IMG/VR virus record: IMGVR_UViG_3300011118_000028
Coordinates: 1-25,665 of that record
From: a virus
DNA: 25,665 nt
Direction: 5' to 3' (one strand)
How positions within the stretch are numbered: position 1 is the first letter of the stretch; every line of letters begins with the position of its first letter. The notes beneath the pieces were generated by a model. The model was not told the DNA's origin. It worked only from the letters and a program-made list of their open reading frames with translations, and did no database searches. This document shows, piece by piece, positions 533-14,681 of this stretch. The translations under genes were made by a program, and so were the position numbers.

Positions 533-931
533 ATGGAGCGCTGCCGGAAATCGGACAAGGGGAGTCGGGGCTGCATCAAGCCGGCGGGCCACCGAGGGCG
601 CTGCAAGGTCCGCGACGACGCCGCGGCGATCTTCGCCGCGGGCGCCGACGCCGAGGCGCCGGCCCCGAAGCGCCGTGCGAAGGCCCGCGGCAAGGCCAAG
701 CCCCGACGTGCGTCGGGACTGGCGGCGGCGCTGGAGGACCTCCAGGCGACGACGCGGAAGCTGGAGGACGCCGTCCGGGACCACACGGCCACGGCCGGCG
801 GCCTGGCCGCCGTCCTGGCCAAGCGGATCGACTCGCTGCGGGGGCGGAACGCCGCCCTGCTGAAATCGGTCGTGGCCAGCACGCGGCGGCTCCGCGAGCT
901 GGCCGCGGGGGCGGACGGCAAACGCGAGTGA
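533..931 (+). CDS. Small basic protein with N-terminal Cys/His motif and coiled coil (132 aa)
   Basis: The frame is open from 479, but the ATG at 533 has a good ribosome site (AAAGGA at 519-524) and begins directly with the informative part. The N-terminus carries C4-x9-C14-x5-H20-x3-C24 with a GHRGRC ending, the pattern of small putative zinc knuckles common in phage and plasmid proteins. Residues about 40-65 are Ala/Lys/Arg-rich (KRRAKARGKAKPRR). Residues about 66-130 form one long helix with heptad-like hydrophobics (LAAALEDLQATTRKLEDAV, then LAKRIDSLRGRNAALLKSVV). That suggests a nucleic-acid-binding coiled-coil dimer. I do not recognise a named family. It lies between small left-arm genes and the ASCH-ParB frame, whose possible GTG start at 928 would overlap this stop. 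Confidence 0.65.
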   Translation: MERCRKSDKGSRGCIKPAGHRGRCKVRDDAAAIFAAGADAEAPAPKRRAKARGKAKPRRASGLAAALEDLQATTRKLEDAVRDHTATAGGLAAVLAKRIDSLRGRNAALLKSVVASTRRLRELAAGADGKRE

Positions 932-1029
932 AAGCACACAAGCCATACCGGCTAGGGGCTGCGACGGCCCGCCCGCCGGCGCGATCGCAAGATGAACCGG
1001 GCGGCTCCAGGAGCGGGCCCGCCCCGTCC

Positions 1030-3759
1030 ATGGCGGCGATCACGCTGTGGAGCCCGTGGGCGCAGTGGATCGCCGCCGGACTCAAGACGGTGGAGACCCG
1101 CGAACACGGGCGACTCCGCTCCGTGGTCGGCCGCCGGGTCGCGATCCACGTCGCCCGGCAGACCGACCGGCAGGCCCTGCTGATCGCGAGCAAGTACGCC
1201 AGGTCCGACCGGCTGCTGGCGGCGATCAAGCGCTTCGGCGACGTGGCCGGGCACGTCCTGGCGACGGCGTTCGTCCTGGACCACCGCAACGTGACGGACT
1301 GGCACTCTCGAGCGGCGCTGTATCCGTGCAGCCCCGGCCTCTACGGCGTGTTCCTCGGCGACGTTCGGGTGCTTCCCGAGCCGATCCCCGCCTGCGGCTG
1401 CCAGCTCATCTGGTCGTGGACACCGCCGCCGGGATGGAAGGACGACGGCCCCGCCCCTGCGCTCTTCGGGCGGGCAAGGCGGCGACGTGGGCGAGACGAC
1501 CCTGACGACAAGGAACGGATCCCGCCGCGGGCGGGATCGCAAGAGGAAAGGAACGACTCCATGAGCAAGCAGACGGTGGCGGAGATGGCCCGGATCGACG
1601 GCAAGACGCCCGTCGGCCGGGAGTACGAATTCGAGGGCGAGCGGGGCGCATTCGACCCGCGCATCCAGGGGCCGGCCAAGACGCCGTTCGCCTTCACGCT
1701 GCGCCTGGCGAAACGCTTCCGCCGGCGGAAAGACGCCGGCAACATCACATTCGCCAACGGAGACGGGACGACGTTCACGCTGGGGATCGACCACTGGCGC
1801 GACAGCTACGCGCCGGCCGTGACGGGCGTCGTGGACCGCGAGGCGGCGGGGACGAAGCGGCGCGGTGCCAGCACGCCGCCGCCATCGGCCGGGGCGAAGG
1901 CCCCGGCGCCCCTCGGCCGGCTGGAGGGGCCGCCCGGCGTGGCGGCCGGGTGGACGCAGACCGCACGGCCCACGCTCGTGCGGACGGCGATCGACTCCAT
2001 CGAGGTCCGCGACGGCGCGAACCCGCGGCGGCACTTCGACGAGGGGCTCCTGGCGGAGCTGGCCGCCAGCCTCGGCCAGACGGGACAGCTCCAGCCCATC
2101 GCGGCCCGCGAGATTCCTGGCCCCGGGGCCGGCGGCCGGCTCGAGCTGATCTTCGGCGAGCGGCGGCTTCGGGCGGCACGGCAGGCGGGCATGGAATGGG
2201 TCGACGTCCTGGTCTACCCGAAGGGCGCCCTGGCGGACAGCGACGCGGCGGACATGCGCCTGACGGAGAACCTCCGCCGGGCCGACCTGACGCACATCGA
2301 GCTGGCCGAGGCCTTCGGCGCCCTCCGCGACGCCGGCCACAGCAATCAGCGGATCGCCGAGCGCTACCACGTCAGCGACGATTTCGTCCGGAAGCACACG
2401 TACCTCTTGCGGCTCGCACCGCCCGTCCGCGAGCTGCTCGCCAGCGGCCGCCTGCCCGTCAAGCAGGCCGAGCTGATCTGCCGCGTGGGCGACCACGCCA
2501 AGCAGGTCAACCTCGCCGGCGAGGTCACGAACCTGAGCTGGAACCCGAGGAAGAAGACCTGGGGCGACCGACACACGGTCGGCCAGGGCGGCCGCTTCGA
2601 TCCGGCCGATTACGTCATGCCCGCCGGCGAGCTGCGACAGCGCCTGCCGTGGCTGATGAAAACCCTCGGGGCGTGCGGCTGGCCGATGGACCAGGAGTAC
2701 GCCGGGCGCAGGCCGTGCGCCGTCTGCCCGGACAATACGGCGACGGAGCCGACGCTGTTCGAGGGCGTCAACATCCCCGGCACGTCCCGCAAGGGCACGT
2801 GCACAAACGAGGCCTGCTTTCTCGTCAAGGCCAGGGCCTGGGAGAAGGTCAAGGCCAAACGCCGGGCCGAGAAGGAACGGAAGGACAAGATCCGGGCCGC
2901 CGAGGCCCGGGCACGCGGCGACTGCATCTGCGGCGACTGCGGGCGGATCGCCGAGCCGGCCGCCAAGGGCAAGCCCCCCGACGGCTGGCCCAAGAGCGAC
3001 CAGTGCCCCAAGTGCAAGGAGCGGGCGGACAAGCGGAGGGACCGCTACGGGGGCGGCCCGGCCGGCAAGCCCCGGCGCTGGCCCGACACGCCCGAGGAAC
3101 ACCTCGACGCGGCCCTTGACGAGCATGGGCGGGAGCTGACCACGAAGCTGGTCGAGTGGATCGGTCTGTCCCTGGCGTTCTGGACGGCCGAGGCCCGCAC
3201 CCAGCGCCTCGAGCTGCTCTGCGTTCTGCTGGTCGTCCAGCGGGCGACGCGCTCGTGGGGCGCCGACGTCCAAATCTGGAGCCTGGAGCCCGACGACGAT
3301 GACGACGACGGCGTCGAGAAGCTGCTCGCCCGGATCGCTGCGGGCGAGGCGATGGCGCCGACGGCGGAAGATCTCCGCACGTCGGTGGACGCCCTCCTGC
3401 ATCCGATCAAGGGCCGCGGGCTGCACCAGCACCATCGGGCGATGACCGGCCGCGACCTGGCCGCCCTGGACGCCACGGAGGCCGTCTGCCGCCGCTACGG
3501 CATCGAGGTCCCCGACCGCCCCACGCTGGAGAGCGTCCGGGCACGCGTGGAGGCCGCGCGGGCCAAGGCCCAGCGCGAGGCGCTGGCCAAGGCGATCCGC
3601 ACGGCCAAGCGGCCCGAGGCCCTCGCCGCGATCGCGGCGTGCGCCGACGCGGCGCTGCTGGCGGAGGTCCTCGCCGCCGGCCCCCGCGGCAAGTGGCGGA
3701 TCGCCGCCATCGAGGGCCGCCGGCTCGAGCTGGAGCAGGCCGTTGGCGAAGCGGAGTGA
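1030..3759 (+). CDS. ASCH domain joined in frame to a ParB-type partition protein
   Basis: One open frame of 909 residues from ATG 1030; the frame is also open back to GTG 928. Residues 1-145 look like an ASCH (PUA-like, RNA/nucleotide-binding) domain: ITLWSPWAQWIAAGLKTVETRE, a GRRVAIHVA strand, and a closing GLYGVFL...GCQLIWSW. From residue 178 a second protein seems to begin (ATG 1561, with a strong GAGGAAAGG site). It carries the ParB N-terminal domain (about 321-415): NPRRHFDE, GERRLRA at 376, TENLRRADL at 412. An HTH follows (about 435-460, SNQRIAERYHVSDDFVRKH). Next come two cysteine clusters (CAVC...CTNEAC near 563-595; CICGDC...CPKC near 635-662) and a helical C-terminus with a six-Asp run. 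ParB proteins bind centromere-like sites; its ParA is not in view. Either a true fusion or two genes lacking a stop between them; translation from 1561 alone gives 732 residues. Confidence 0.82.
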   Translation: MAAITLWSPWAQWIAAGLKTVETREHGRLRSVVGRRVAIHVARQTDRQALLIASKYARSDRLLAAIKRFGDVAGHVLATAFVLDHRNVTDWHSRAALYPCSPGLYGVFLGDVRVLPEPIPACGCQLIWSWTPPPGWKDDGPAPALFGRARRRRGRDDPDDKERIPPRAGSQEERNDSMSKQTVAEMARIDGKTPVGREYEFEGERGAFDPRIQGPAKTPFAFTLRLAKRFRRRKDAGNITFANGDGTTFTLGIDHWRDSYAPAVTGVVDREAAGTKRRGASTPPPSAGAKAPAPLGRLEGPPGVAAGWTQTARPTLVRTAIDSIEVRDGANPRRHFDEGLLAELAASLGQTGQLQPIAAREIPGPGAGGRLELIFGERRLRAARQAGMEWVDVLVYPKGALADSDAADMRLTENLRRADLTHIELAEAFGALRDAGHSNQRIAERYHVSDDFVRKHTYLLRLAPPVRELLASGRLPVKQAELICRVGDHAKQVNLAGEVTNLSWNPRKKTWGDRHTVGQGGRFDPADYVMPAGELRQRLPWLMKTLGACGWPMDQEYAGRRPCAVCPDNTATEPTLFEGVNIPGTSRKGTCTNEACFLVKARAWEKVKAKRRAEKERKDKIRAAEARARGDCICGDCGRIAEPAAKGKPPDGWPKSDQCPKCKERADKRRDRYGGGPAGKPRRWPDTPEEHLDAALDEHGRELTTKLVEWIGLSLAFWTAEARTQRLELLCVLLVVQRATRSWGADVQIWSLEPDDDDDDGVEKLLARIAAGEAMAPTAEDLRTSVDALLHPIKGRGLHQHHRAMTGRDLAALDATEAVCRRYGIEVPDRPTLESVRARVEAARAKAQREALAKAIRTAKRPEALAAIAACADAALLAEVLAAGPRGKWRIAAIEGRRLELEQAVGEAE
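1518..1560 (+). promoter_or_regulatory. Perfect hairpin plus strong ribosome site before internal ATG 1561
   Basis: GATCCCGCC (1518-1526) and GGCGGGATC (1530-1538) are perfect 9-bp inverted arms around GCG. A purine-rich ribosome site (GAGGAAAGG, 1543-1551) follows, ten bases before ATG 1561. The layout looks like a gene boundary (end-of-gene hairpin, then SD, then start), although the ASCH frame stays open across it. It is the main reason to suspect that ParB is also made as a separate protein. Confidence 0.55.
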
Positions 3760-3786
3760 CCGCAGGATGAAGGACTGAGCAACGGC

Positions 3787-4434
3787 ATGGACGCCGACGT
3801 GGCCAAGCTGTGGCGGGCCTACCGCCGCCGGCGGACGGCGGCGAACCGCAACCGCCTCATCGTGGCGCTGCTGCCGATGGCGCGGCACGCCGCGATGCAG
3901 ACGGCCCGCAAAACGGGCCTGGAGAAGGGCGAGCTGCTCGGCGAGGCGGTCCTGGCGGCCATGCGGACGCTGCCCGGCTGGCGGCCGGGCGGGGGAGCCT
4001 CGCTGACGACCTACCTGTACCGGGCGATGCGCTGGGGCTCCTGGCGGGCCGCCGAGCAGCTCCGCCGGCAGGCCGCGAGCCTGGACGCGGCGATGGACGC
4101 CGGCGACGAGGCGGTCCGGGCGAGGGCGACGCTGGCGGACCCGTCGGCCGGCCGGGCGATCCGGCGGCTGGAGGACGCGGAGGCGGCGGGGCGGCTGCTG
4201 GGGGTGCTGGGGCCGGAGCTGCGGGCGGTGGCCGTCTGGCACTTCGGCGAGGGGCGCTCGCTGGTCGAGGTCGGCCGGCTGCTGGGGATCTCCGACATGA
4301 CGGCGGCCCGGCGGGCCCGCGGCGCGCTGGCGAGACTGCGGCGCGAGGCCCGCCGGCTGGGACTGACGAACGGCACGAGAACCAGAGATCCGCACAGGAG
4401 AACACGATGGCCAGACGCACGCGGAAGCGACTGA
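3787..4434 (+). CDS. Sigma-70-family RNA polymerase sigma factor (215 aa)
   Basis: The N-terminal half matches sigma region 2: NRLIVALLPMARHAAMQTARKTG, then GELLGEAVLAAMRTLPGWRPGGGASLTTYLYRAMRW. The 'EAVLAAMRT...F/G...LTTYLYRAMRW' block is the core helix set that contacts beta-prime and the -10 element. The C-terminal half (about 140-195) matches region 4: LGPELRAVAVWHFGEGRSLVEVGRLLGISDMTAARRARGALARLRRE, a helix-turn-helix for the -35 element. No region 1 or long region 3 is present, so this is a short group 3/4-type factor. The start ATG 3787 is 27 bases after the ParB stop, with AAGGA upstream. The last 28 bases overlap the next gene. A phage sigma factor would redirect host polymerase to phage promoters. 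Family assignment is strong; target promoters are unknown. Confidence 0.85.
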   Translation: MDADVAKLWRAYRRRRTAANRNRLIVALLPMARHAAMQTARKTGLEKGELLGEAVLAAMRTLPGWRPGGGASLTTYLYRAMRWGSWRAAEQLRRQAASLDAAMDAGDEAVRARATLADPSAGRAIRRLEDAEAAGRLLGVLGPELRAVAVWHFGEGRSLVEVGRLLGISDMTAARRARGALARLRREARRLGLTNGTRTRDPHRRTRWPDARGSD

Positions 4435-5126
4435 CGCGCAGCCGGATGACGCGAGCCCGGACGGCGACCCCGAACGTCCTGGCCCCGGCGGCAGACCCGT
4501 GGGAGCGGGGCCGCCGCGGGCTGGCGGTGGCGGACGCGGAGGCCCGGGCCCTCGCCCAGAACGTCATCGACGAGATCGAGGACCACCGCTGGCTCCGCGA
4601 GGCCCGGGTGCTGCTGCTGTTTCGCTCGGGCGTCCAGCCGAACGCGGAGAACCAGATCTGCCTCGGCCAGGCCCGGCGGGCGGCCCCGCTGGTAGCGCTG
4701 CTGGGCGAGCGGCCGGACTTCGTGATCCTGCTGACGCGCGAGACGTGGGAGGCCGCCGCGCCCCGCAAGCGGCTGGCCCTGCTGGACCACGAGCTGACCC
4801 ACTGCGCGGTGACGATCGCCGGGAAGTTCGTCTCGCCGGCCAAGCTGGAGGCGTTCGTGGCGCAGCTCGGCAAGCGGCACATCGAGACGACGAACATCAC
4901 CGACGACAAGGACCGCACGCTGGTGCGGTACGTCAAGACGGACGCCGACGGCCGGCCGCGGTGGCGCATCCGCCACCACGACGTGGAGGAATTCTATGAC
5001 GTGCTCGGCCGCTGGGGGGCGTGGGACGCGGCGGCGGCCCGGCTGATCGACCTTCTGGAGAAACCCGACGACGGGCAGATGCCGCTGTTCGACGACGGCG
5101 AGGCGAACCGCCAGGCGGCGGGCTGA
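4407..5126 (+). CDS. Putative phage metallopeptidase (HELTH motif, 239 aa)
   Basis: ATG 4407 is preceded by AGGAG (4396-4400) and lies inside the end of the sigma gene in another frame. After a basic start (MARRTRKRLTRSRMTRAR) the protein has a folded domain with RVLLLFRSG, PDFVILLTRETWE and then LALLDHELTHC, in which H128-E129-x-x-H132 is the zinc-binding HExxH signature. This arrangement (strand, strand, 'H-E-L-T-H-C', then a conserved 'DEDG...R...HHDVEEF' block, here DADGRPRWRIRHHDVEEFYDVLGRWG) matches the putative phage metallopeptidase family, whose proteins also end in short acidic tails. The third metal ligand probably lies in the HHDVEEF block. The substrate is unknown. Overlap with sigma suggests coupled expression, perhaps of an enzyme acting on a host or phage regulator; that role is inference. 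Confidence 0.8.
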   Translation: MARRTRKRLTRSRMTRARTATPNVLAPAADPWERGRRGLAVADAEARALAQNVIDEIEDHRWLREARVLLLFRSGVQPNAENQICLGQARRAAPLVALLGERPDFVILLTRETWEAAAPRKRLALLDHELTHCAVTIAGKFVSPAKLEAFVAQLGKRHIETTNITDDKDRTLVRYVKTDADGRPRWRIRHHDVEEFYDVLGRWGAWDAAAARLIDLLEKPDDGQMPLFDDGEANRQAAG

Positions 5127-5138
5127 CCGGAGCGGGCA

Positions 5139-6422
5139 ATGGCGGCCGGCCACGGACGGCGGCGGTACGTCTGGCGGATCTGCCACTGGCGGACGCTCTA
5201 CGCCGTCGGCACCGAGCCCGGCTCGATGGACGAGCTGTACGCGATGCGCTACCCGATGGAGTTCGTGAGGCTGTTCTGTAGCACCGCCACGCGGCGGGCG
5301 GCCTTCGTCCGCCGGCAGCGGCGGGCGATCCTCGCCGCGGGGGGGCATCGGCTCTGGGGGATCGCGCTGGACGTGCTGTGCTTCGCGGCCGTCTGCGATC
5401 GCGCGGACGGCCGGCTCCTGGATCATCTCGGGTCGCCGGCGAACCCGGAACACATCGCCGAGGTTGTTGGCCTGTCGCCCGAACAGCTCGGCCGGGCGCT
5501 TCGGCTGCTCAGCGGCCGGGCGGTCGGTTTCATCGAGCGGGCCGCCTGGCGGCCCGGGGGGACGCCCCCGGGGCCGGACGGCGGCGGGATCGGGCGACGC
5601 GGGCCGTGCCCGGCCGACGGGCCGGAGAGGGGGACAGGAGATGATCCCGACAGCGGCCAGGGGGCCGGCGACGCCGAACGCGGCCAGGGGCCGGGAGGGC
5701 GCGGCCCGCCGGGCGAGGAATCGCCGGGGGACGCCGCTGCCGGCGCCGCCGAAGAACAAGAGCAAGACCAAGAGCAAGAGCAAGCCGAAGGCGCTCGCCT
5801 GTCGGCTCGCGGCAAGGCGGCTGCGCCGCAAGACGAAGAAGAAGCGGCGCCGGCAGAGCAAGGGCGCCCGGGCGCGCGAGAGGCAGAGGCGGCGGCCAGC
5901 GGCGAGGGCCAGCGGCGCCAGGCCGAGGCCGAGGCCGCCAGGCCGACGGGTGCCGACCCGGCCGGGCAGGTCCGCGCGACGGAAGACCCGGACACGGGCG
6001 TGGTCGAGCTGACGATCGGGGAGCCACGATCGGGTGCTGACCCAGGCGGCGGGGCGGCCGGCGGGCCGCCCCCCGCCGGGCCGGCGCTGGACGGGGACGC
6101 CGTGGCCTGGACGATCTTCGCGCTGCTGTACCCCACCGAACGGGCCAAGCAGATCGGGGCCGAACGCGGCGGAACGAACGGGACGCCGCTAAGCCTCCGC
6201 CAGTTCACCGAACGCGAGACGGCCGCCCTTCGCAGCGGATGGGATCGCCTGGCCGCGGCCCACGCCGATGAGCAGGTTGCGTTCCGGCTGGGCCGGCAGC
6301 GGGCCGCGGAGATCGGCCGGCGGCGGGTCACACCGCACAAGACGGCCGGGGCAATCTGGTGCCACTGGATCCGCCAGCACACCGCCAAGCAACGCGCCAC
6401 CGCGGCGGGAGGGCATCACTAA
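5139..6422 (+). CDS. Hypothetical protein with winged-helix-like N-terminus and low-complexity middle (427 aa)
   Basis: ATG 5139 follows GGAGCGGG and lies 12 bases after the metallopeptidase stop. Residues 1-135 look folded: YVWRICHWRTLYAVG, then GIALDVLCFAAVCDRADGRL and an HTH-like block (NPEHIAEVVGLSPEQLGRALRLLSGRAVGFIER), similar to N-terminal domains of phage replication-initiation proteins. Residues about 140-315 are Gly/Pro/Ala/Glu/Gln low complexity. The C-terminus (about 320-420, WTIFALLYPTERAKQIGAERG ... GAIWCHWIRQHTAKQRA) again looks folded. Third-position G/C bias weakens in the middle, where another frame (5641-6012) fits better. The single frame may therefore cover two genes, or its middle may be dual-coding. 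The function is unrecognised; replication initiation is only a guess from domain shape and location. Confidence 0.6.
   Translation: MAAGHGRRRYVWRICHWRTLYAVGTEPGSMDELYAMRYPMEFVRLFCSTATRRAAFVRRQRRAILAAGGHRLWGIALDVLCFAAVCDRADGRLLDHLGSPANPEHIAEVVGLSPEQLGRALRLLSGRAVGFIERAAWRPGGTPPGPDGGGIGRRGPCPADGPERGTGDDPDSGQGAGDAERGQGPGGRGPPGEESPGDAAAGAAEEQEQDQEQEQAEGARLSARGKAAAPQDEEEAAPAEQGRPGAREAEAAASGEGQRRQAEAEAARPTGADPAGQVRATEDPDTGVVELTIGEPRSGADPGGGAAGGPPPAGPALDGDAVAWTIFALLYPTERAKQIGAERGGTNGTPLSLRQFTERETAALRSGWDRLAAAHADEQVAFRLGRQRAAEIGRRRVTPHKTAGAIWCHWIRQHTAKQRATAAGGHH
5641..6012 (+). CDS. Candidate very basic Lys/Arg-rich protein overlapping in the +1 frame (123 aa)
   Basis: ATG 5641 follows GGAGAGGGGG (5625-5634). 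The frame runs to TGA 6010-6012 wholly inside the 427-residue frame. Its codons almost all end in G or C, including the run AAG AAC AAG AGC AAG ACC, whereas the host frame reads GAA GAA CAA GAG CAA there. In this GC-rich genome that contrast usually marks the true coding frame. The product has the KNKSKTKSKSKPK run, KTKKKRRRQSKGARARERQRRR and proline-arginine repeats. It would be a histone-like or intrinsically disordered, nucleic-acid-binding protein. Alternatives are that it is the C-terminal part of the upstream protein after a frameshift, or a compositional accident of repetitive DNA. Confidence 0.4.
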   Translation: MIPTAARGPATPNAARGREGAARRARNRRGTPLPAPPKNKSKTKSKSKPKALACRLAARRLRRKTKKKRRRQSKGARARERQRRRPAARASGARPRPRPPGRRVPTRPGRSARRKTRTRAWSS

Positions 6423-6669: not shown

Positions 6670-7638
6670 ATGGCGAAATCCGCACCTGAAAAACCGAAGC
6701 CCCGCCCGCGCGTCCGACTCCGCGAGCGCGACCTTCGCCGCGCCGCCTCGCAGAAGAAGGCGCTGCCGGACATCGCCGAGGCCCTCGGCGTCGCGCTGGG
6801 CCGGCTGACGGAGGCCCTGGCCAAGCGCCCGCGGCTCCGCGCCGCCTACGACCGCGGCCGGCTGCTCTACCGCGTCCGCCGGCTGTCGTACATCGGGTCG
6901 AGCTACGACGAGGCCGCCCGGTCCCTCGGCCGGGAGCCCGCGGCGTTCCGCCGGCTCGTCGAGGGCGACCCGGAGCTGCTCGACACGTGGCGCTCCGGCC
7001 GGACGGAATCCCTCCAGGCCCTGACCGCCGCCCTGTGGACGCAGGCGCAGTCCGGCTCCGTCCCGGCGATCCGCACGGCGATCGAGCGCCTCCAGGCGGA
7101 CCTCGGCCCGCGGTCGGTGGACCTCCGGAGCCTCCGCGTCGGCGAGACGGCCGCCGCCTTCGGCGTCTCCCGCCAGTCGATTCACGACTGGAGCCGCAAG
7201 GGCTGCCCCCGCAACGCCGACGGCACTTTCCCGCTGGCGGAGCTGATCGAATGGCGCGTCGCCCAGCTCCTGGAGCGCTCCGGCGAGCGCCCGGCCGCGA
7301 CCGCCGAGAGCCGTTTCCGGGCGGCGAGGGCGGAGGCGGCGGAAATGGACCTGCGCGAGCGGCGGGGGCAGCTCCTGGACCGCCGCGAGGTCGTCGTCGG
7401 CATCATCGCCCGCGTCCATCGGTTCGTGCAGATCCAGGAGGGCGAGGCGACGGCCCTCGCCGGCGAGCTGGCCGGCAAGCCCCCGGAGCTGATCGCCGAC
7501 ATCCTCCAGCGGCGGTTCGTCGCCTGGCGGCGGATGATGATCCCGGAGCTGAAGGCCCTGCGCCTGCCGACCGACGCCGAGGCGGAGTTGGCCGGGCTGC
7601 TGGACCGCCTCGCCGCCGGCGGGGGGGGCGGATCGTGA
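6670..7638 (+). CDS. Terminase small subunit, Nu1-like (322 aa)
   Basis: The protein that recognises the packaging site on phage DNA and assembles with the large subunit. I take ATG 6670 (MAKSAPEKPKPRPRVRLRERDL); the in-frame TTG 6559 adds unlikely sequence. Residues about 155-200 form the Nu1/excisionase-like winged helix: SLRVGETAAAFGVSRQSIHDWSRKGCP, then GTFPLAELIEWR. A long helical region follows (RFRAARAEAAEMDLRERRGQLLDRREV), the hallmark of Nu1-type and related small terminases, and then a C-terminal helical part likely to bind the large subunit. It is longer than lambda Nu1 (181 aa) because of an N-terminal 150-residue helical segment with a second possible HTH (LPDIAEALGVALGRLTEAL). 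It overlaps the next gene by GTGA. Confidence 0.83.
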   Translation: MAKSAPEKPKPRPRVRLRERDLRRAASQKKALPDIAEALGVALGRLTEALAKRPRLRAAYDRGRLLYRVRRLSYIGSSYDEAARSLGREPAAFRRLVEGDPELLDTWRSGRTESLQALTAALWTQAQSGSVPAIRTAIERLQADLGPRSVDLRSLRVGETAAAFGVSRQSIHDWSRKGCPRNADGTFPLAELIEWRVAQLLERSGERPAATAESRFRAARAEAAEMDLRERRGQLLDRREVVVGIIARVHRFVQIQEGEATALAGELAGKPPELIADILQRRFVAWRRMMIPELKALRLPTDAEAELAGLLDRLAAGGGGGS

Positions 7639-9587
7639 CGGCGGCGACGGCGATTCGGCCGCTGCCCCTCCAGGCGGAGGAGCGCGAGGCCTGGCGGCCG
7701 CGGCCGCGGCTGAGCGTCATCGAATGGGCCGAACGCCGGCGGATGCTGAGCCGCCTGACCAGCGCGATCCCGGGCCGCTGGAGCTGGGACGTGACGCCCT
7801 ACCTCCGCGACCCGGCGGAGGCGTGGTGCGACCCGCAGATCCGGCGGATCACGATCCGCAAGTGCAGCCAGTCCGGGGCGACGGAGCTGGGCTGCAACAT
7901 CGTCGGCCGGACGATCGACGAGGACCCGCAGCCGACGATGATCGTCATGCCCGTCGAGAACGACGTGCGCCGGCGCGTCCGCGTCCGCATCCGGCCGATG
8001 ATCGCCAGCGCCCCGTCGCTGCTGAAGCACCTCGGCCGCCTGGAGGACCTGAACATCGGCGGCGAGACGGTCCTGGACCACATGATCCTGTACCTGGCCT
8101 GGGCGACCAGCCCGGCGGCCCTGGCGGACAACCCGGTCTGCTACGTCATCCTCGACGAGATCGACAAGTACCCCGATCGAGCGGGCCGCGAGGCCGACCC
8201 GATCAGCCTGGCGGAGGACCGCCAGCGGACGTTCATCCTGGCCCGGACGCTGGAGCTTTCCACGCCGACCGACGAGCACGGCCCGGTGTGGCGGGGATGG
8301 CTCGCCGGCGATCGCCGCGAGTGGTTCGTCCCGTGCCCGGAATGCGGCACATGGCAGCGGCTCGTCTGGGCGAACGTCCGGCTGGACAAGGACGACGACG
8401 GCCACCTGCTGGCCCCGTCGGCCTACCGGCTGGGCGAGAGGGCCCGCTACGTCTGCCCGCACTGCCGGGCGGCCTGGACGGAGGACGACCGCTGGCAGGC
8501 CGTCCGGGCCGGCCGGTGGGTCCCGGACGGCTGCGGTGTGGACGGCCGCGGGCGCCTGACCGGCGAGGCCCCCGCCACGACCCACCGGTCGTACCACGTC
8601 CACGCCCTCATGCTGCACAAGACATTCTCGACGGTCGCCAAGCTGGCCGCCCGCTGGGCCCGGGCGGTCCGTTCGCAGAAGGCCGGCGACATCGGCCCGA
8701 TGATCGACTTCTGGAACTCCGAGATTGGGGAAATCTGGGCCGACACACAGGGCCGGACGGACGTGGAGGTCCTCCGCCGGCGGATCGAGGCGCGGCCCCA
8801 GGACCTCGTGCCGCCGGCGGCGGCCTGCCTGACGGCCGGCGCGGACGTCCAGGCGGACCACGTCTACCTGGCGGTCTGGGGCTGGGCCCACCTGTACGAG
8901 GCGTGGCTGATCGACTACCAGCGGCTCGAGACGGGCGACACGATGCTGGGCCAGAACTGGCGGCCGCTCGCGGAGGCCCTCAGCCGGACCTGGCCCGTTA
9001 CCCCCCGGGCGCCGGCGCCCGGGCAGGACGCGCCGCCGCCGGCGCCGGAGCGGATGGGGATCTCCCTGGCGTTCATCGACTCCGGCTTTCGGCCGGCGGC
9101 GGTGTACGACTTCTGCCGGACGTTCGGCGGCTGCGACGCCAGGCCTAGCAAGGGCCACGGCCGGCCGGACCTGCCGTTCCGCAGCTCGGTGGTGGATTAC
9201 CACCCGTTCACCGGCCGGCCGGTCGAGCATTCGATCCGCCTGTGGCACCTTCGGGTCGACGGTTACAAGGACCGCCTCTGGCGGATGTGCATGAACGACC
9301 GGCCGGGCGGCGGCTACGTGCACCTGCCGGCCGACGCATCGGACGAGCTGCTCGCCCAGCTCGCCAGCGAGGAAAAGCGGATCGTCCGGCGGACGCGCGA
9401 CCGGACGGTGCTGGCCTGGGCCCGCAAGGCCGGCTCGCCGGCGAATCACTGGTGGGACTGCTCGGTGTACGCACTGGCGGCCGCGGAGGTCATCGGGGTG
9501 CGGAACCTGCCGGCGCCGGGAGAGGCGCCGCCGCCCGAGGAAGAGGAAATCGCGGTGGCCCGGATGGACCGGTTCGCCCACCGCTAA
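7635..9587 (+). CDS. Terminase large subunit, lambda GpA family (650 aa)
   Basis: The packaging motor ATPase and DNA-cutting nuclease. GTG 7635 overlaps the small-subunit stop. The N-terminal ATPase begins with the family's EWAERRRML / PGRWSW...PYLRDP motif. A deviant Walker A (KCSQSGATE, about 75-83) has the lysine at the start and Ala where classic P-loops have Lys, as in GpA relatives. Walker B is YVILDEIDKYP (about 168-178). A zinc-binding pair, CPECGTWQRLVW (about 234) and CPHC (about 274), is typical of GpA proteins. The C-terminal nuclease shows acidic motifs AGADVQADHVYLAVWGW and LAFIDSGFRPAAVYDFC, and a late NHWWDCSVYALAAAE motif with the final Asp. The length is as expected (lambda GpA 641). 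Next gene 17 bases away. Confidence 0.95.
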   Translation: MTAATAIRPLPLQAEEREAWRPRPRLSVIEWAERRRMLSRLTSAIPGRWSWDVTPYLRDPAEAWCDPQIRRITIRKCSQSGATELGCNIVGRTIDEDPQPTMIVMPVENDVRRRVRVRIRPMIASAPSLLKHLGRLEDLNIGGETVLDHMILYLAWATSPAALADNPVCYVILDEIDKYPDRAGREADPISLAEDRQRTFILARTLELSTPTDEHGPVWRGWLAGDRREWFVPCPECGTWQRLVWANVRLDKDDDGHLLAPSAYRLGERARYVCPHCRAAWTEDDRWQAVRAGRWVPDGCGVDGRGRLTGEAPATTHRSYHVHALMLHKTFSTVAKLAARWARAVRSQKAGDIGPMIDFWNSEIGEIWADTQGRTDVEVLRRRIEARPQDLVPPAAACLTAGADVQADHVYLAVWGWAHLYEAWLIDYQRLETGDTMLGQNWRPLAEALSRTWPVTPRAPAPGQDAPPPAPERMGISLAFIDSGFRPAAVYDFCRTFGGCDARPSKGHGRPDLPFRSSVVDYHPFTGRPVEHSIRLWHLRVDGYKDRLWRMCMNDRPGGGYVHLPADASDELLAQLASEEKRIVRRTRDRTVLAWARKAGSPANHWWDCSVYALAAAEVIGVRNLPAPGEAPPPEEEEIAVARMDRFAHR

Positions 9588-9604: not shown

Positions 9605-9994
9605 ATGGCGAAGAAGGACACGAAGGCGCCGCCGGCGGCGGCGAAGGCCCCGGAGAGGAAGCAGGCCGCGGAGGCCCCAGAGACGCCCGAGGCGACGGCG
9701 GCGGCGGCGGAGATCCTGCCGGGGCTGGACGCGATGACGGACGTGCAGCTCCTGGCACTGGCCGTGGGGCGCGCCGTGCCCGTCGCGGTGGACCGCGAGG
9801 ACCTGATCCGGCGAATCCGCCGGCACCTGGCCCCGAAGCTCGGCAGGCACCGCGCGGGCGAGACGCTCTGCCCGCGGTGCGGCGCCCGGGCCGTGGTCCG
9901 GTCCAGCGGCGCCCGCTTCGGGCTGAAGCGCTACTACCGCTGCCCGTTCTGCCGGCACCGCTTCCCGCTGGCCAAGCTGCAAGGGGGATCCTGA
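9605..9994 (+). CDS. Zinc-ribbon protein (129 aa)
   Basis: ATG 9605 follows GAAAGGA (9592-9598). Residues 1-55 are an Ala/Pro/Glu/Lys-rich disordered leader. Residues 60-85 form a helix (AVDREDLIRRIRRHLAP) and residues 89-116 form a zinc ribbon, C89-P-R-C92 ... C113-P-F-C116, with the KRYYRCPFCRHRFP spelling of rubredoxin-like or transposase-type ribbons. No enzyme motif is present. It is the first gene of the stretch that separates terminase from the gpW-like gene. It ends one base before the ParB/Srx gene, so the two are probably cotranscribed. A nucleic-acid or protein-adaptor role is inferred from the ribbon only. Confidence 0.7.
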   Translation: MAKKDTKAPPAAAKAPERKQAAEAPETPEATAAAAEILPGLDAMTDVQLLALAVGRAVPVAVDREDLIRRIRRHLAPKLGRHRAGETLCPRCGARAVVRSSGARFGLKRYYRCPFCRHRFPLAKLQGGS

Positions 9995-9995
9995 C

Positions 9996-10631
9996 GTGGG
10001 CCGGGCGAGAAGGAAGCCCCCGCCGCCGGCCGGCCCGGCGCACATCGCGCCGGCCATCCGGGCCCACGCGGTGGCGATCGACTCCATCGACGTGCACCCC
10101 GCCAACGCCCGCCGCCATCCGCGGCGGAACCTGGACGCGATCCGGGCGAGCCTTCGCCAGTTCGGCCAGCAGCTTCCCGTTGTCGTCAATGGCGAGGGGC
10201 TCGTGGTCGCCGGCAACGGGACGCTGCGGGCGGCCCGGGAGCTGGGCTGGCGGCAGATCGCCGCGGTCGTGACCGACCAGGAGGGCCTCGCCCAGCAGGC
10301 CCTCGCCGTGGCGATGAACCGGACGGCGGAGCTGGCGGAGTGGGATGACGGGCGGCTGGCCGCGGAGCTGGAGGCGATCGTGCGGGACCTGGAGCTGGCC
10401 GACGCGACGGGCTTTTCGGAGCGGGACATCTCCGGGCTGCTGGGCAAGCTGGCCGACGGCGAGGCCGCCGAGACCGCCGAGACGGCCGGCATCGAGCCCT
10501 TCGAGGTCCGCGAACCCCCGACAATGGTCTGGGTGCTGCTGGGGATCCCCCTGGAGGCCTGGCCGATGGCGATGGAGGCCGTCACGCAGCTCCGCGCCCT
10601 GGCCGGCGTGGACGTGGAGACGACCCGATGA
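9996..10631 (+). CDS. ParB/sulfiredoxin-fold nuclease-like domain protein (211 aa)
   Basis: GTG 9996 with AAGGGGG upstream. Residues 28-95 carry the ParB/Srx fold: IDSIDVHPANARRHPRRNLDAI, then FGQQLPVVVNGEGLVVAGNGTLRAARELGW, in which GNGTLRAARELG is the box II equivalent (GER.RAA in partition ParB). QQALAVAMNRTAELAEWDDGRLAAELEAI follows, and that block is shared with the ParB-like N-domains found beside phage DNA methyltransferases. No partition HTH follows, so it is not a chromosome-partition ParB. It overlaps the methyltransferase-like gene by ATGA, which strongly suggests partnership. Such domains can bind CTP or cleave nucleic acid; which applies here is unknown. Confidence 0.83.
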   Translation: MGRARRKPPPPAGPAHIAPAIRAHAVAIDSIDVHPANARRHPRRNLDAIRASLRQFGQQLPVVVNGEGLVVAGNGTLRAARELGWRQIAAVVTDQEGLAQQALAVAMNRTAELAEWDDGRLAAELEAIVRDLELADATGFSERDISGLLGKLADGEAAETAETAGIEPFEVREPPTMVWVLLGIPLEAWPMAMEAVTQLRALAGVDVETTR

Positions 10632-11236
10632 AGGCCCGGGCGACGCGACAGACCGACAACAGCCATCTGGCGGTGAAGCTCGAGATCCGCCGGCGGATCT
10701 GCGGGGCCCTCGGCGAGCCCCTGGCGGTCCTGGACTGCTGCGCGGCGGCCGGCGTGATCTGGCGGCGGCTGCGGGCGGAGCTGCCCGTCGAGCGCTACGT
10801 CCCGATCGACCGCAAGCCCGACCGGGCGGCCGTGCCGGAGACGCTCCGCCTGGACAGCCGGGCCGCCCTCGAGCGGATGGACCTGGCGGCCTTCAACGTC
10901 GTGGACGTGGACACCTACGGCGAGCCGTGGGACCACTGGCTGACCGCCTGCCGGCGGATCGCCCGGCGGACGGCCGTATTCCTGACGCACGGCTTCGTCT
11001 CCGTGGCCGGCGGGAACGTCTCGCGGACGGTCCGGCGCGAGCTGGGCATCCCGGCCGCCTGGCCGATCCCGATCGGGCCGGCACTGGCAAAACTCTCCGC
11101 AAGTTTTTTGTTGTCAAGAGGTTGCAAATCGGCTAGACTCCGGTCGGCTCTGCGATGGACATCGAGCCGGGTGGACTACTACGGTCTGATCCTGGAGCCC
11201 GCCGGGCGGGCGGGCGGAAAGGGGAAACGGACATGA
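10628..11236 (+). CDS. Class I SAM-dependent methyltransferase-like protein (202 aa)
   Basis: ATG 10628 overlaps the previous stop. LAVLDCCAAAGVIWRRL (D36 to G42) fits the SAM-binding glycine loop of Rossmann methyltransferases. RYVPIDRKPD fits the acidic end of strand 2. FNVVDVDTYGEPWDHW (D93, D95, P100) resembles the DxDPxGSP catalytic motif of Trm1-like RNA guanine methyltransferases. It is shorter than Trm1 and lacks a target-recognition domain. Codons from about 11090 to 11160 are unlike the rest (AGT, TTT, TTG, TCA, AGA, AAA) and contain a promoter-like sequence. The C-terminus (SRVDYYGLILEPAG) looks genuine again. Its substrate could be DNA, RNA or protein. The neighbours (ParB/Srx before, radical SAM after) point to nucleic-acid modification, by inference. 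Confidence 0.68.
   Translation: MKARATRQTDNSHLAVKLEIRRRICGALGEPLAVLDCCAAAGVIWRRLRAELPVERYVPIDRKPDRAAVPETLRLDSRAALERMDLAAFNVVDVDTYGEPWDHWLTACRRIARRTAVFLTHGFVSVAGGNVSRTVRRELGIPAAWPIPIGPALAKLSASFLLSRGCKSARLRSALRWTSSRVDYYGLILEPAGRAGGKGKRT
11111..11139 (+). promoter_or_regulatory. Promoter-like site inside the methyltransferase gene (TTGTCA, 17 bp, TAGACT)
   Basis: TTGTCA (11111-11116) and TAGACT (11134-11139) are separated by exactly 17 bases, with a T-run just upstream (11104-11109). The site lies in an AT-rich pocket of about 60 bases in otherwise very GC-rich DNA. Predicted transcription starts near 11146, about 85 bases before the radical-SAM ATG at 11233. It would give the radical-SAM and membrane-protein genes their own promoter. 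Confidence 0.5.
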
Positions 11237-12033
11237 CGGCGGGAAGGACCGCGCCGGCGATCTCCGGCACGAAGGAATGGTCGAGCCGTTCGGTCAACTG
11301 CTGCACGGGCTGCTCGCACGGCTGTCTGTACTGCTACGCCCGGGCTCGGGCGGCGCGGTTCCGGCTGCGGGCCGCGGCGGAGTGGACACGCGAGGAAATC
11401 CGGCCGGCGGCGGTGGCCAAGGGCTACCGCTTCGCCGAGGGGACGACGATGTTCCCCACGACGCACGACATCACGCCGACGAACCTCGCGGCCTGCATGA
11501 CGGTCCTGGGCAAGCTGCTGGGCTCCGGCCGGCGGGTCCTTCTCGTCAGCAAGCCGCACCGCCGCTGCATCGGGCGGATCTGCGCGGAGCTGGCCCTGTT
11601 CCGCGAGCAGGTGCTGCTGCGCTTCACGATCGGTGCGGTGTCGGATCGGCTGCTGCGCTTCTGGGAGCCGGGCGCCCCGCCCTTCGCCGAGCGGCTGGGC
11701 TGCCTGATCCTGGCCCACCGCGCCGGCTTCGCGACCAGCGTCTCCGCCGAGCCGCTGCTGGAGGCGGCCCGGGCCGCGGAGCTGGTGGCCCGCGTCCGGC
11801 CGCACGTGACGCACTCCATCTGGATCGGCAAGGCCAACCGCCTCCGCGAGCGGACGGCCTGGGCCCTGCCGGCGGACCACCCCGAGATCCTCGCCGTCGA
11901 GGCCGGCCAGACGGACGCCGCCGTCCGGCACGTGGCGGCCCAGCTCCGCAACGATCCGCTGATCCGCTGGAAGGAATCGTACAAACAGGTCCTCGGCCTG
12001 GCACTGGCGACGGAGCCCGGCCTGGACATCTGA
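11233..12033 (+). CDS. Radical SAM protein with CxxxCxxC cluster motif (266 aa)
   Basis: ATG 11233 overlaps the preceding stop and has a purine-rich site (GGAAAGGGG, 11217-11224). Residues 23-36 read CCTGCSHGCLYCYA; C27-x3-C31-x2-C34 is the radical-SAM [4Fe-4S] motif, with the aromatic Y before the last cysteine. FPTTHDITPTN, GRRVLLVSKPH, FTIGAVSD and GFATSVSAEPLLEA trace the beta strands of the partial TIM barrel, as in small proteins related to spore photoproduct lyase or the Rv2578c group. No second cysteine cluster or SPASM domain is present. It could insert or remove a modification on DNA, RNA or a peptide. Adjacent ParB/Srx and methyltransferase-like genes favour nucleic acid; the reaction cannot be read from sequence. 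Confidence 0.82.
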   Translation: MTAGRTAPAISGTKEWSSRSVNCCTGCSHGCLYCYARARAARFRLRAAAEWTREEIRPAAVAKGYRFAEGTTMFPTTHDITPTNLAACMTVLGKLLGSGRRVLLVSKPHRRCIGRICAELALFREQVLLRFTIGAVSDRLLRFWEPGAPPFAERLGCLILAHRAGFATSVSAEPLLEAARAAELVARVRPHVTHSIWIGKANRLRERTAWALPADHPEILAVEAGQTDAAVRHVAAQLRNDPLIRWKESYKQVLGLALATEPGLDI

Positions 12034-12047
12034 TCGGGGAGACGACG

Positions 12048-12425
12048 ATGGACGTGGTATGGGATCTCCTGGCGTCGTTCTGGTCTGTCCTGTGGCGGGT
12101 CCTGCTGGTCTCGGCGGCCGTCGGGGCGGCGGCGTTCGGCTGGCGCCGGCTGCGGGCCTATCTCCACGCCGACGGCAAGCCGGCGGTCGGCGAGAGCGCC
12201 CGCGAGAACGGCACCGAGGCGGCGAGCGGACGCGCCGAGGCGCGGAGGATCGAGGCGATCTTCGATCGGGCCTCGGCGGCGGGGATCCGGATCCACGCCA
12301 CGGACGCCGCGGACGGCGCCCTGGACGTGAGCCTCCAGCCGGATACGCCGGAGTCTCGTGAGAAGATGGCGGCGATCCTCCACAGCGAGGGCTTCGACCG
12401 CTTCCGCCTGCACACCTGGAGCTGA
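12048..12425 (+). CDS. Membrane-anchored hypothetical protein (125 aa)
   Basis: ATG 12048 lies 14 bases after the radical-SAM stop, with GGGGAGA upstream. Residues 4-31 (VWDLLASFWSVLWRVLLVSA, then AVGAAAFGW) form one transmembrane helix, followed by the basic stop-transfer RRLR. Residues 45-125 are soluble: a charged linker, a helix (ARRIEAIFDRASAAGIRI), a short strand block (DAADGALDVSLQPD) and ESREKMAAILHSEGFDRFRLHTW. Together the last parts resemble a small alpha/beta domain. No signal cleavage site or lipobox is seen. I recognise no family. It closes the first half of the island; 345 bases without a gene start follow it. Confidence 0.62.
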   Translation: MDVVWDLLASFWSVLWRVLLVSAAVGAAAFGWRRLRAYLHADGKPAVGESARENGTEAASGRAEARRIEAIFDRASAAGIRIHATDAADGALDVSLQPDTPESREKMAAILHSEGFDRFRLHTWS

Positions 12426-12474
12426 CCGGCCCGCCGGCACACCCGGCCGATCCCCCGGGCCCGCTCCCTCTGCC

Positions 12475-12571
12475 CTCCGGGCCGAACGGCCGAACCGACC
12501 CCTATCCCCCCGCGGATGGCCCCCCGCGGGGCTCTCCGGGCGGATACGGGCGTCCTGGAGGCCCTCCAGGC
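12475..12571 (+). repeat. Long structured repeat, copy 1 (about 97 bases)
   Basis: It begins CTCCGGGCCGAACGGCC and ends with the dyad CCTGGAGG/CCTCCAGG (12554-12570). Between them are CCCTATCC, two CCCCCGCGG units and GCTCTCCGGGCGGATACGGG. The order and spacing match copies 2 and 3 at 14328 and 14493 almost base for base after the first 20 bases. It lacks the leading GGCCATCCTGGCG of those copies. Confidence 0.85.
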
Positions 12572-12657
12572 CCCCGGCCGGCCCGGCCCGGCCGCCGTCG
12601 GCGGACCCCCCGTCGGCCAGGCCCCGGAGGGGGGCGAAAAAAATCTGGCTTTTATCC

Positions 12658-12686
12658 TTGCCAAAGTATATTCGCCCGAATATACT
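12658..12686 (+). promoter_or_regulatory. Promoter P1 (TTGCCA, 17 bp, TATACT) with overlapping 10-bp dyad operator
   Basis: TTGCCA (12658-12663), 17 bases, TATACT (12681-12686): five of six consensus matches in each box. An A-run (12637-12643) and TTTTAT upstream look like an UP element. Arms AGTATATTCG (12665-12674) and CGAATATACT (12677-12686) form a perfect dyad around CC, covering the spacer and -10, an ideal repressor position. The XRE-type protein encoded at 13977 is the obvious candidate. The -10 continues as CTCAAGG, as in P2. Confidence 0.8.
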
Positions 12687-12730: not shown

Positions 12731-12754
12731 ATCGGCCGGAATGGGCCGGCCGAT
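12731..12754 (+). promoter_or_regulatory. Leader hairpin 1 with AATGGG loop
   Basis: ATCGGCCGG (12731-12739) and CCGGCCGAT (12746-12754) pair perfectly around AATGGG. It lies between promoter P1 and the ribosome site of the gene at 12771. An identical element precedes the clamp-loader gene (13120-13143) and a shorter one lies in promoter P2 (13936-13953). Confidence 0.7.
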
Positions 12755-12770
12755 GGGTCTGGAGAACGAC

Positions 12771-13052
12771 ATGTATACGAGATTCGCCAAGGTAACACCG
12801 AAGGGGCCGCTGGCCAGGCACGGGGCCTTCCCCGTGGACATGCTGCGATACGACCGCTGCTGCCCCTGCCGGGAAGTGGACTCGGCCCGGATCATGGCCA
12901 CGTTCGACGGCGGAGCCCACCTGCCCGGCGACGGCGACCGGGGCGTGGTCGTGACGAAGCTGACGGCCCGCAAGACGGAGCCGGCCTGGACGGTCGCCCG
13001 GTGGGCGAGCTTCGGCTGGGAGCTGCGGGAGATCACCTGCTCGTGGGCGTAG
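12771..13052 (+). CDS. Conserved-looking hypothetical phage protein (93 aa)
   Basis: ATG 12771 has GGAGA (12761-12765) at good spacing, and the clamp-loader start at 13160 repeats the same arrangement. The upstream in-frame ATG 12696 would begin almost at the P1 transcription start and read through hairpin 1, so I reject it. The sequence MYTRFAKVTPKGPLARHGAF, VDMLRYDRCCPCREVDSARI, then VVVTKLTARKTEPAWTVARWASFGWEL looks like a compact mixed alpha/beta protein. It has a CCPC cluster (residues 30-33) and one further Cys near the C-terminus. Similar small proteins with an 'MLRYD-x-C-P' core are, to my memory, common among phages without known function. It is the first gene of the P1 operon with the clamp loader. 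Confidence 0.65.
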   Translation: MYTRFAKVTPKGPLARHGAFPVDMLRYDRCCPCREVDSARIMATFDGGAHLPGDGDRGVVVTKLTARKTEPAWTVARWASFGWELREITCSWA

Positions 13053-13119: not shown

Positions 13120-13143
13120 ATCGGCCGGAATGGGCCGGCCGAT
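13120..13143 (+). promoter_or_regulatory. Leader hairpin 2 with AATGGG loop
   Basis: It is the exact 24-base duplicate of hairpin 1: arms ATCGGCCGG and CCGGCCGAT around AATGGG. It is preceded by another stem (CCTTCGG 13096-13102, CCGAAGG 13112-13118) and followed 16 bases later by the clamp-loader start with the same GGAGA-type site. The duplication covers hairpin, spacer and first two codons (ATGTAT). Confidence 0.7.
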
Positions 13144-13159
13144 GGATCGGGAGACGGAC

Positions 13160-13870
13160 ATGTATCTGATCGAAAAGTACAGGCCGCGGAGACTGGCGCA
13201 GGTGATTGGGCAGGAGCGGGCGGTCGCGACGATCCGCCGCGTGATGGACCACGCCACCTTCGACCGCGGGGCGTTCTGGATCGAGGGCCCTCCGGGAACC
13301 GGCAAGACCTCGCTGGCCCTGGCGATGGCCCGGAAGGTCGGGGCGACGGACTTCACCACGGAGATCATCGACGGCGATGCGTGCAGCGTCGGGCGGGTCC
13401 GCCAGATCACCGAGACCATCCGGCTGGCCGGCTGGGGCGGCTCCGGCTGGAAGGTCTACATCGTCAACGAGGCGCAGGCGATGACGCCCCGGGCCGTCCA
13501 GGCGTGGCTGACGCTGCTGGACCCGCTGCCGCCCCGGCGCCTGGTGATCTTCACGACCACGGAGGAAATGGCGACGCTGTTCGGCCAGTTCCGCCAGCCC
13601 TTCGGCGATCGCGTCCACGCCGTGCGCCTGACCAAGCTGGGCCTCCGCGAGCGCTTCGCCCGCCTGGCCAAGCGGATCGCCGGCCGCGAGGGCCTGGACG
13701 GCCGCGAGCTGGGGGCCTACGAGGAACTCGCCGGCCGCTGCCACAACTCCATGCGGGCGATCCTCCAGGCCATCGCCCGCGGCGAGATGGCCGTCGAGCC
13801 GGAGTACTCCCCGGCGATCCGCAAGATGATGGCCGGCCGCCGGCGGGCGGCCGCCGCCCGCGGGCAGTAG
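13160..13870 (+). CDS. Clamp-loader-like AAA+ ATPase (236 aa)
   Basis: ATG 13160 with GGGAGA at proper spacing. The opening MYLIEKYRPRRLAQVIGQERAV is the RFC/DnaX signature ('KYRP..l.dviGQ'). Walker A is GPPGTGKTS (K49, T50). The Walker B position reads VYIVNEAQAM, with Asn103 in place of the usual Asp before Glu104. LVIFTTTEE is the sensor 1 strand. ERFARLAKRIAGREGLD, then RCHNSMRAILQAIARGE give the lid domain with a sensor-2-like NSMR. The protein stops there: no collar domain and no zinc module as in DnaX. It resembles the small RFC-like subunits of phages. It may load a host or phage sliding clamp, but no clamp gene is in view. Transcription is probably from P1. Confidence 0.85.
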   Translation: MYLIEKYRPRRLAQVIGQERAVATIRRVMDHATFDRGAFWIEGPPGTGKTSLALAMARKVGATDFTTEIIDGDACSVGRVRQITETIRLAGWGGSGWKVYIVNEAQAMTPRAVQAWLTLLDPLPPRRLVIFTTTEEMATLFGQFRQPFGDRVHAVRLTKLGLRERFARLAKRIAGREGLDGRELGAYEELAGRCHNSMRAILQAIARGEMAVEPEYSPAIRKMMAGRRRAAAARGQ

Positions 13871-13933: not shown

Positions 13934-13962
13934 TTGCCGGGAATGGGCCCGGCGGATATACT
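13934..13962 (+). promoter_or_regulatory. Promoter P2 (TTGCCG, 17 bp, TATACT) with hairpin in the spacer
   Basis: TTGCCG (13934-13939), 17 bases, TATACT (13957-13962), then CAAGG: the same layout as P1, with ATATACTCAAGG identical over 12 bases (13956-13967 and 12680-12691). The spacer holds arms GCCGGG (13936-13941) and CCCGGC (13948-13953) around AATGGG, the loop of hairpins 1 and 2. It drives the XRE gene 15 bases downstream. Confidence 0.75.
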
Positions 13963-14306: not shown

Positions 14307-14327
14307 CGTGCGCGGCAGCTTCCCCGG

Positions 14328-14443
14328 GGCCATCCTGGCGTTCTCCGGGCCGAACGGCCCGCCGGCCCCTCTACCCCCCGCGGATCGCCCCCCGCGGGGC
14401 TCTCCGGGCGGATACGGGCGTCCTGGAGGGCCTCCAGGCGTCG
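14328..14443 (+). repeat. Long structured repeat, copy 2 (116 bases)
   Basis: It starts GGCCATCCTGGCGTTCTCC and ends with the dyad CCTGGAGG/CCTCCAGG followed by CGTCG. It contains three inverted elements: CGGGCC/GGCCCG around GAAC; CCCCGCGG/CCGCGGGG; and the terminal dyad. Copy 3 has the same length and differs at only a few positions. No long coding frame fits it. Confidence 0.88.
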
Positions 14444-14492
14444 TCCTGGACCGCCGCCGGCCGCCGGCGGGCTCGCGGGCCAGCCCCCGGAG

Positions 14493-14608
14493 GGCCATCC
14501 TGGCGTTCTCCGGGCCGAACGGCCCGCCGGAGCCCTATCCCTCCGCGGATCGACCTCCGAGGGGCTCTCCGGGCGGATACGGGCGTCCTGGAGGGCCTCC
14601 AGGCGTCG
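14493..14608 (+). repeat. Long structured repeat, copy 3 (116 bases)
   Basis: It has the same start and end as copy 2. In the central stem four positions differ (C to T, C to A, C to T, C to A). The old 8-bp pairing is disrupted by a wobble and a mismatch, but CCCTC can now pair with GAGGG, so a hairpin is kept in a shifted register. An A-rich stretch (GAGAAAAAG, 14617-14625) follows, as one follows copy 1. The connector gene begins 74 bases later. Confidence 0.88.
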
Positions 14609-14681
14609 CCCCGGCGAGAAAAAGCGCCCGATCTGTAAAACCGCCCCGACGGAAACGGCCGCGCCGGCGGTGGAATCCGGT

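Follow-up and report, generated by a model that had tools for sequence, protein, structure and literature searches.

The sequence analysed here, an IMG/VR virus record of 25,665 bases from an uncultured bacterial virus (hereafter, the window), carries an operon of five closely packed genes directly 3′ of its lambda-type terminase, at 9605-12425. Three of these genes, encoding a ParB/Srx-domain protein, a Trm1-like class I S-adenosylmethionine (SAM)-dependent transferase and a radical SAM enzyme, constitute a conserved core (9996-12033) that is found in about a hundred uncultured viruses, against a single one of 50,697 INPHARED records. This core may well be a three-gene phage cassette for nucleic-acid modification, acting most likely on the phage's own DNA around the time of packaging; this is the explanation that we prefer, at somewhat less than an even chance. 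The terminase large subunit (TerL), the operon genes and the conserved part of the ParB/Srx protein are as follows (aa, amino acids; nt, nucleotides).

7638-9587, plus strand: TerL, gpA type (PF05876, 3.7e-64; PF20454, 5.3e-57); start codon approximate
9605-9994, plus strand: zinc-ribbon protein, 129 aa, starting 17 nt past the TerL stop at 9587
9996-10631, plus strand: ParB/Srx-domain protein, 211 aa, GTG start, 1-nt gap from the zinc-ribbon gene
10485-10631, plus strand: C-terminal tail of the ParB/Srx protein, about 48 aa, beta-alpha-beta-like, PPxMxWVLxGIP...
10628-11236, plus strand: Trm1-like class I SAM-dependent transferase, 202 aa, ATGA overlap with the ParB gene
11233-12033, plus strand: radical SAM enzyme, 266 aa, ATGA overlap with the transferase gene
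12048-12425, plus strand: single-pass membrane protein, 125 aa, 14-nt gap after the radical SAM gene

The window has a G+C (GC) content of 70-76% and a lambda-type gene order, in which the terminase small subunit, TerL and the five-gene operon are followed later by a gpW-like head-tail adaptor and the portal. Profile matches identify the GpA ATPase and nuclease domains in TerL. All five open reading frames (ORFs), with their gaps of 17, 1 and 14 nt and two ATGA overlaps, proved to lie where a preliminary description of this DNA had placed them, and their codon-position GC, which agrees with that of TerL and the portal (third-position GC of 0.89-0.95, against 0.95-0.97), shows that they are coding. 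An Rfam scan gave no match. The same description put the five genes between the terminase and gpW. They are indeed located there, but gpW begins only at 14670, and the about 2.2 kb of further sequence from the operon end at 12425 to this point holds an operator-like palindrome, an ORF of about 93 aa, an AAA+ gene, a helix-turn-helix (HTH) gene and three copies of a non-coding repeat.

Relatives of the core were reached through the neighbours of radical SAM genes and through alignments. The window transferase as a single query had no match in viral_contigs, and a sister genome sought via TerL gave a closest segment only 38% identical. A radical SAM query retrieved 32 viral loci, three of them with adjoining ParB and transferase genes, and a renewed search with four aligned transferases retrieved 16 loci. 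When the 48-aa ParB tail alone was the query, 24 viral loci were found, and the transferase gene came directly next in all 23 whose contig continued, part of these 23 being contigs already met through the transferase search. Among the 34 unique transferases of the group to which the window belongs (clade 1, window excluded), 29 have a tailed ParB directly upstream, and 22 are followed within 1.5 kb by a radical SAM gene. In 32 transferase loci that were fetched without the radical SAM query (a few of the contigs were also met by it), the slot holds a radical SAM gene in 21, whereas its density in the rest of these loci would predict 1.3; the recurrence of the core is far above chance.

Divergent transferases (clade 2), taken from the two loci described next, gave 105 loci when used as queries, of which 80 were kept, with 72 unique transferases. 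ParB is directly upstream in 67 of the 72, and four of the other five start within 25 bases of a contig edge. A radical SAM gene is present on the locus in 71/72 and within 1.5 kb downstream in 67/72, in line in 49 and convergent in 18. The two loci that supplied these queries show the trio as well. In the INPHARED record, Dulem virus 36 (lemur faeces), genes for ParB, a hypothetical protein of 24.6% identity and a PA0069-type radical SAM enzyme are consecutive (its transferase as sole query found no relative), and locus L128, found with the terminase alone, reads ParB, transferase, radical SAM, TerL consecutively. The cassette stands on either side of TerL: it precedes TerL in L038, L048, L049, L064 and others, the distance to TerL being no more than about 1.7 kb in 10 clade-1 loci, and it follows TerL in the window, L047 and L061. 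Thus the three core genes keep together in related phages and are not scattered. The preliminary description had treated the five genes as one system, and of this the ParB/Srx-transferase-radical SAM unit is conserved, whereas the zinc-ribbon and membrane proteins, for which no relatives were found in the retrieved loci, are passengers outside the cassette.

As for hosts, a cassette contig of clade 1 occurs in an uncultured Gimesia assembly and another in a second assembly of the same phylum (G040), which agree with planctomycete hosts for this clade. In the Gimesia assembly a gene of the radical SAM family DUF5131 stands at the start of another contig and is possibly the continuation of a broken cassette locus. 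Clade 2 reaches a gut phage. On a 385-kb contig of a genome from the Gimesia assembly's phylum (L077), a degenerate transferase gene interrupted by in-frame stops adjoins a DUF5131 gene that is intact; this may be the remnant of a prophage cassette.

The ParB/Srx protein consists of a variable N-terminal head and a conserved C-terminal tail. Its PHROG matches are a ParB-like family (1.3e-31) and the ParB part of a DNA methyltransferase family (2.5e-31). It does not show the make-up of a chromosome or plasmid partition ParB, in which ParB_N is followed by an HTH ParB domain: the score for ParB_N (PF02195) is 23.0 bits, under the cut-off of 26.3, and an HTH ParB domain was not detected. The tail of about 48 aa is common to transferase-linked ParBs. 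Homology of the tails extends across the two clades (hhalign, 97.1%); in both, a hydrophobic strand, a helix and a strand end exactly at the start of the transferase gene. Heads are of the GNGT, GHGR and DGHLR types on this constant tail, as would be expected if an adaptor docked one fixed enzyme while swapping its targeting head. In L037 three successive ParB genes (1847-5728) precede the transferase gene, and the conserved tail is present in the last only. A ParB-transferase fusion suspected in L200 turned out to be an out-of-frame read-through.

The transferase belongs to an undescribed family: no PHROG family was matched by any of 46 members, and Pfam TRM was matched weakly by nine of the 46 (best, 8.2e-5). 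Its AlphaFold2 (AF2) model, built with 16 relatives, has a predicted local distance difference test score (pLDDT) of 83.9. The five best Foldseek matches in the PDB are all Trm1 (E of 3.6e-7 to 1.1e-5), and in VIA-align the RsmD-type YhhF, Trm1, Trm5 and TYW2 tie at the top (Z of 12-13), so that the fold is that of the RNA-type class I transferases. By sequence, the first transferase alignments found only weak SAM-motif matches among PDB profiles, and Trm1 emerged with a wider alignment (E of 0.025); the link to Trm1 thus rests mainly on structure. The wide profile aligns DLDaYGvP with DLDPFGSP of P. horikoshii Trm1, including Asp138, the catalytic residue of Trm1, and the equivalent of Asp138 in the window motif DVDTYGEPW (D93, D95, Y97, G98, P100) is D95. 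DVDTYG and the clade-2 motif DLDAYG both align to D136-L-D138 of structure 2dul. Within clade 1 there is no variation at D93, D95, G98 and P100, nor at the family-specific K17, R21 and W45. Purifying selection is strong in clade-1 pairs, with a ratio of nonsynonymous to synonymous substitution rates (dN/dS) of about 0.1-0.2. The methyltransferase fold and the Trm1-like motif, both proposed beforehand, are thus upheld by the model, by Foldseek and by the profile alignment.

These matches make another substrate possible. Together with the radical SAM enzyme, the Trm1-like protein could modify host or phage tRNA, rRNA or mRNA late in infection, and RlmN is among the enzymes that tie with spore photoproduct lyase (SPL) for the radical SAM model (see below). 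The transferase shares with Trm1, a tRNA N2-guanine dimethyltransferase, the fold, the DxDx[FY]GxP motif and the Asp138 equivalent. Unlike Trm1, it has its own invariant residues and scores below the Trm1 cut-offs (15.6 against 27 bits for PF02005; 17.4 against 280.65 for TIGR00308), and it is without the tRNA-binding C-terminal domain, the whole protein being 202 aa and aligned to residues 15-239 of Trm1 only. Moreover, the near-obligate ParB and the terminase neighbourhood favour DNA, and the window has no tRNA genes. RNA modification is considered unlikely.

Membership of the third core protein in the radical SAM superfamily, also anticipated in the preliminary description, is supported. 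Its CxxxCxxCY motif lies at C27/C31/C34/Y35, with the cysteines invariant in 31 sequences, and its AF2 model has a pLDDT of 94.3. The Pfam radical SAM score of the window protein, 24.6 bits, is under the cut-off of 29.5, and the relative in L048 passes with 33.3. The best Foldseek match of the model is SPL (4fhf, 4.1e-6), and SPL is the only match at E<0.01 in a PDB profile search. In VIA-align the model has SuiB, RlmN, SPL and viperin tied.

SPL acts on DNA, and a repair function can be imagined in which the radical SAM enzyme would reverse lesions of the phage DNA in the manner of SPL, its nearest solved relative by both sequence and Foldseek, with ParB and the transferase as lesion-binding helpers. 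The likeness consists in the CxxxCxxCY radical SAM core. Identity with SPL was rejected, since the position of the hydrogen donor Cys140 (Geobacillus numbering; altered in the C140A/C140S crystal structures) is T76 of TTHDI in the window protein and Thr or Ser in relatives. The SPL family PF20903 had no match in the window protein at E<=0.1, and relatives score below its cut-off of 27 bits (L012, 20.2; L066, 16.8). As known SPL repair involves neither a transferase nor ParB, lesion repair appears very improbable. Still slighter is the chance that the three proteins act on a protein, be it of packaging, of the capsid or of the host. The model is also matched by SuiB and SkfB, radical SAM enzymes that act on peptides, but a conserved precursor peptide is not seen in the cassette, and the best matches of the transferase are nucleic-acid enzymes.

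The cassette slot is occupied by three interchangeable radical SAM subfamilies: the window type, PA0069-like proteins and DUF5131 (PF07505). The window protein itself reaches 20.0 bits with DUF5131, under the cut-off of 28.9, while DUF5131 proteins in the slot are confirmed by Pfam at 227-252 bits (e.g., 227.4 in L049). DUF5131 lies within 4 kb downstream in 15 of 35 clade-1 rows. On the best transferase tree the radical SAM type changes 14 times, against 17.6 in shuffles, and the well-supported branches require only one or two swaps per type. Since the backbone of the tree is poorly resolved, no number of swaps is claimed.

There is a resembling system in cells, which the preliminary description had missed. 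TcmP (three-Cys-motif partner; TIGR04474) forms a pair with DUF5131 in which, as in the phage cassette, a transferase-fold protein has as its neighbour a radical SAM protein from the DUF5131/SPL lineage. Of 199 genomes from the phylum of the Gimesia assembly, 28 have TcmP; it adjoins DUF5131 in 20/20 planctomycete loci fetched, and the two proteins match the A and B components of the PADLOC candidates PDC-M30/PDC-M41. The core could accordingly be a phage counterpart of this pair, serving inter-phage defence or superinfection exclusion, with the transferase and radical SAM enzyme directed against competing phages and ParB as sensor or effector. The presence of DUF5131 itself in the slot of many phage cassettes fits such a role. 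Two Gordonia phages, Angelique and PantheRoc (L111, L102), have TcmP and DUF5131 facing each other beside the immunity repressor, as would be expected of a prophage-borne defence pair. The phage cassette, however, lies among packaging genes and not in the lysogeny region, and the PDC systems are candidates only. Furthermore, the phage transferase is shorter than TcmP and matches Trm1, and the cassette also includes a ParB, near-obligate and with a special tail, and adjoins terminase genes. Direct homology to TcmP was tested and is not supported beyond the SAM motif: the TcmP profile (cut-off, 53 bits) had no match at E<=1 among 16 transferases, and hhalign gave a probability of 0.5%, with only SAM motifs I and II aligned. 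The window transferase has as its radical SAM partner an SPL-like relative and not DUF5131, which takes that place in other clade-1 rows as noted above. The cassette seems analogous to the TcmP-DUF5131 pair and not detectably a member of it, and we regard a defence role as rather improbable. In isolated phages DUF5131 mostly occurs without ParB or the transferase nearby. In the open-access text searched, TcmP is rarely mentioned by name, DUF5131 is not named, and no description of the ParB, transferase and radical SAM set was found.

Modification of the phage's own DNA is favoured for three reasons: the radical SAM enzyme has as its nearest solved relative an enzyme that acts on DNA, the cassette adjoins terminase genes on either side of TerL, and ParB domains accompany phage DNA-modifying transferases (PMC12783734). 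In the last group, which includes CmoX, a phage cytosine C5-carboxymethyltransferase with ParBc neighbours (PMC12783734), and PHROG 498, ParB is likewise fused to or placed beside the transferase. The cassette differs in that its transferase is of another family and has a radical SAM partner, whereas CmoX acts with CmoA and a ligase. For the cassette the following order of events may be envisaged. The ParB/Srx protein would be a targeting adaptor, the variable head choosing or holding the DNA and the constant tail docking the transferase. The transferase, using SAM and the invariant D95, would modify a base, by analogy at an exocyclic amine, and the radical SAM enzyme would then carry out a radical step on the modified base or beside it. 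The resulting mark might serve to protect the DNA or to identify it as self, or it might regulate packaging. DNA as the substrate, and protection or anti-restriction as the purpose, both put forward in the preliminary description, are inferred, as are the docking and the order of the steps.

Several observations weigh against DNA modification. Structurally the transferase is closest to a tRNA enzyme, which makes RNA a possible substrate. In the window protein SAM motif I reads AAAG, against QGxG in relatives, and given this motif its activity is predicted only. In several of the 32 clade-1 loci the piece retrieved holds no radical SAM gene, and therefore this enzyme may be dispensable or act in trans. 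The cassette ParB does not have the HTH_ParB domain, which another protein of the window, ORF 928-3759, carries together with ParB_N. The resembling cellular pair is listed as a defence candidate and not as a modification system, and we know of no cultured phage with the cassette that shows modified bases. More ambitiously, the cassette could represent a novel class of DNA hypermodification, coupled to packaging and composed of a ParB adaptor with exchangeable heads, a Trm1-like transferase and interchangeable radical SAM enzymes. The class would then be spread over some hundred uncultured phages, or more, and hardly occur in phages that have been cultured. This is conceivable but doubtful.

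The zinc-ribbon protein has weak zinc-ribbon matches only; in one other locus, L047, the interval from TerL to ParB also holds a zinc ribbon, unrelated to it, at a position equivalent to that in the window. The membrane protein, whose hydrophobic stretch begins at about residue 7, has no convincing family match in profile searches. Three genes follow between the operon and gpW.

12771-13052: ORF of about 93 aa
13160-13870, plus strand: AAA+ clamp-loader-like ATPase (Pfam AAA, 8.7e-7; DNA_pol3_delta2, 1.1e-6)
ending at 14237, between the AAA+ gene and gpW: HTH gene

Relatives of the AAA+ protein adjoin the transferase in L035, L036, L063 and L072 and lie some kb distant in L045, and this gene is a possible fourth component or accessory gene of the cassette. 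Its Walker B motif reads NEA instead of DEA, and in the other loci it often sits between the transferase and DUF5131. A non-coding repeat of about 140 nt is present three times (12442-12581, 14310-14449, 14475-14614) and contains the palindrome-like CCTGGAGG-CCTCCAGG; the copies flank a 1.7-kb module with the AAA+ gene and the HTH regulator, and the 30-nt core of the repeat had no exact match in other viral contigs. The operator-like palindrome, AGTATATTCG-CC-CGAATATACT, lies at 12665-12686, and CGRATATACTCAAGG occurs at 12677 and again at 13953, the second copy just 5′ of the HTH gene. A 46-nt leader with an inverted repeat and a ribosome-binding site is duplicated at 91% (12731-12776 and 13120-13165), one copy in front of the ORF of about 93 aa and the other in front of the AAA+ gene. 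The 943-aa product of ORF 928-3759 has, in addition to ParB_N and HTH_ParB, cysteine clusters and an ASCH-like region, a candidate modified-base-binding fold, and might serve this phage as the reader of a modified base.

With the cassette comes a transferase family that is undescribed and has near-obligate partners, and the cassette ties the phage DUF5131/Gp37-Gp68 radical SAM proteins and the cellular TcmP-DUF5131 pair to one testable three-protein system. If a modified base is made, the cassette would modify DNA by a new radical route, and the phage might thereby be shielded from defence systems.

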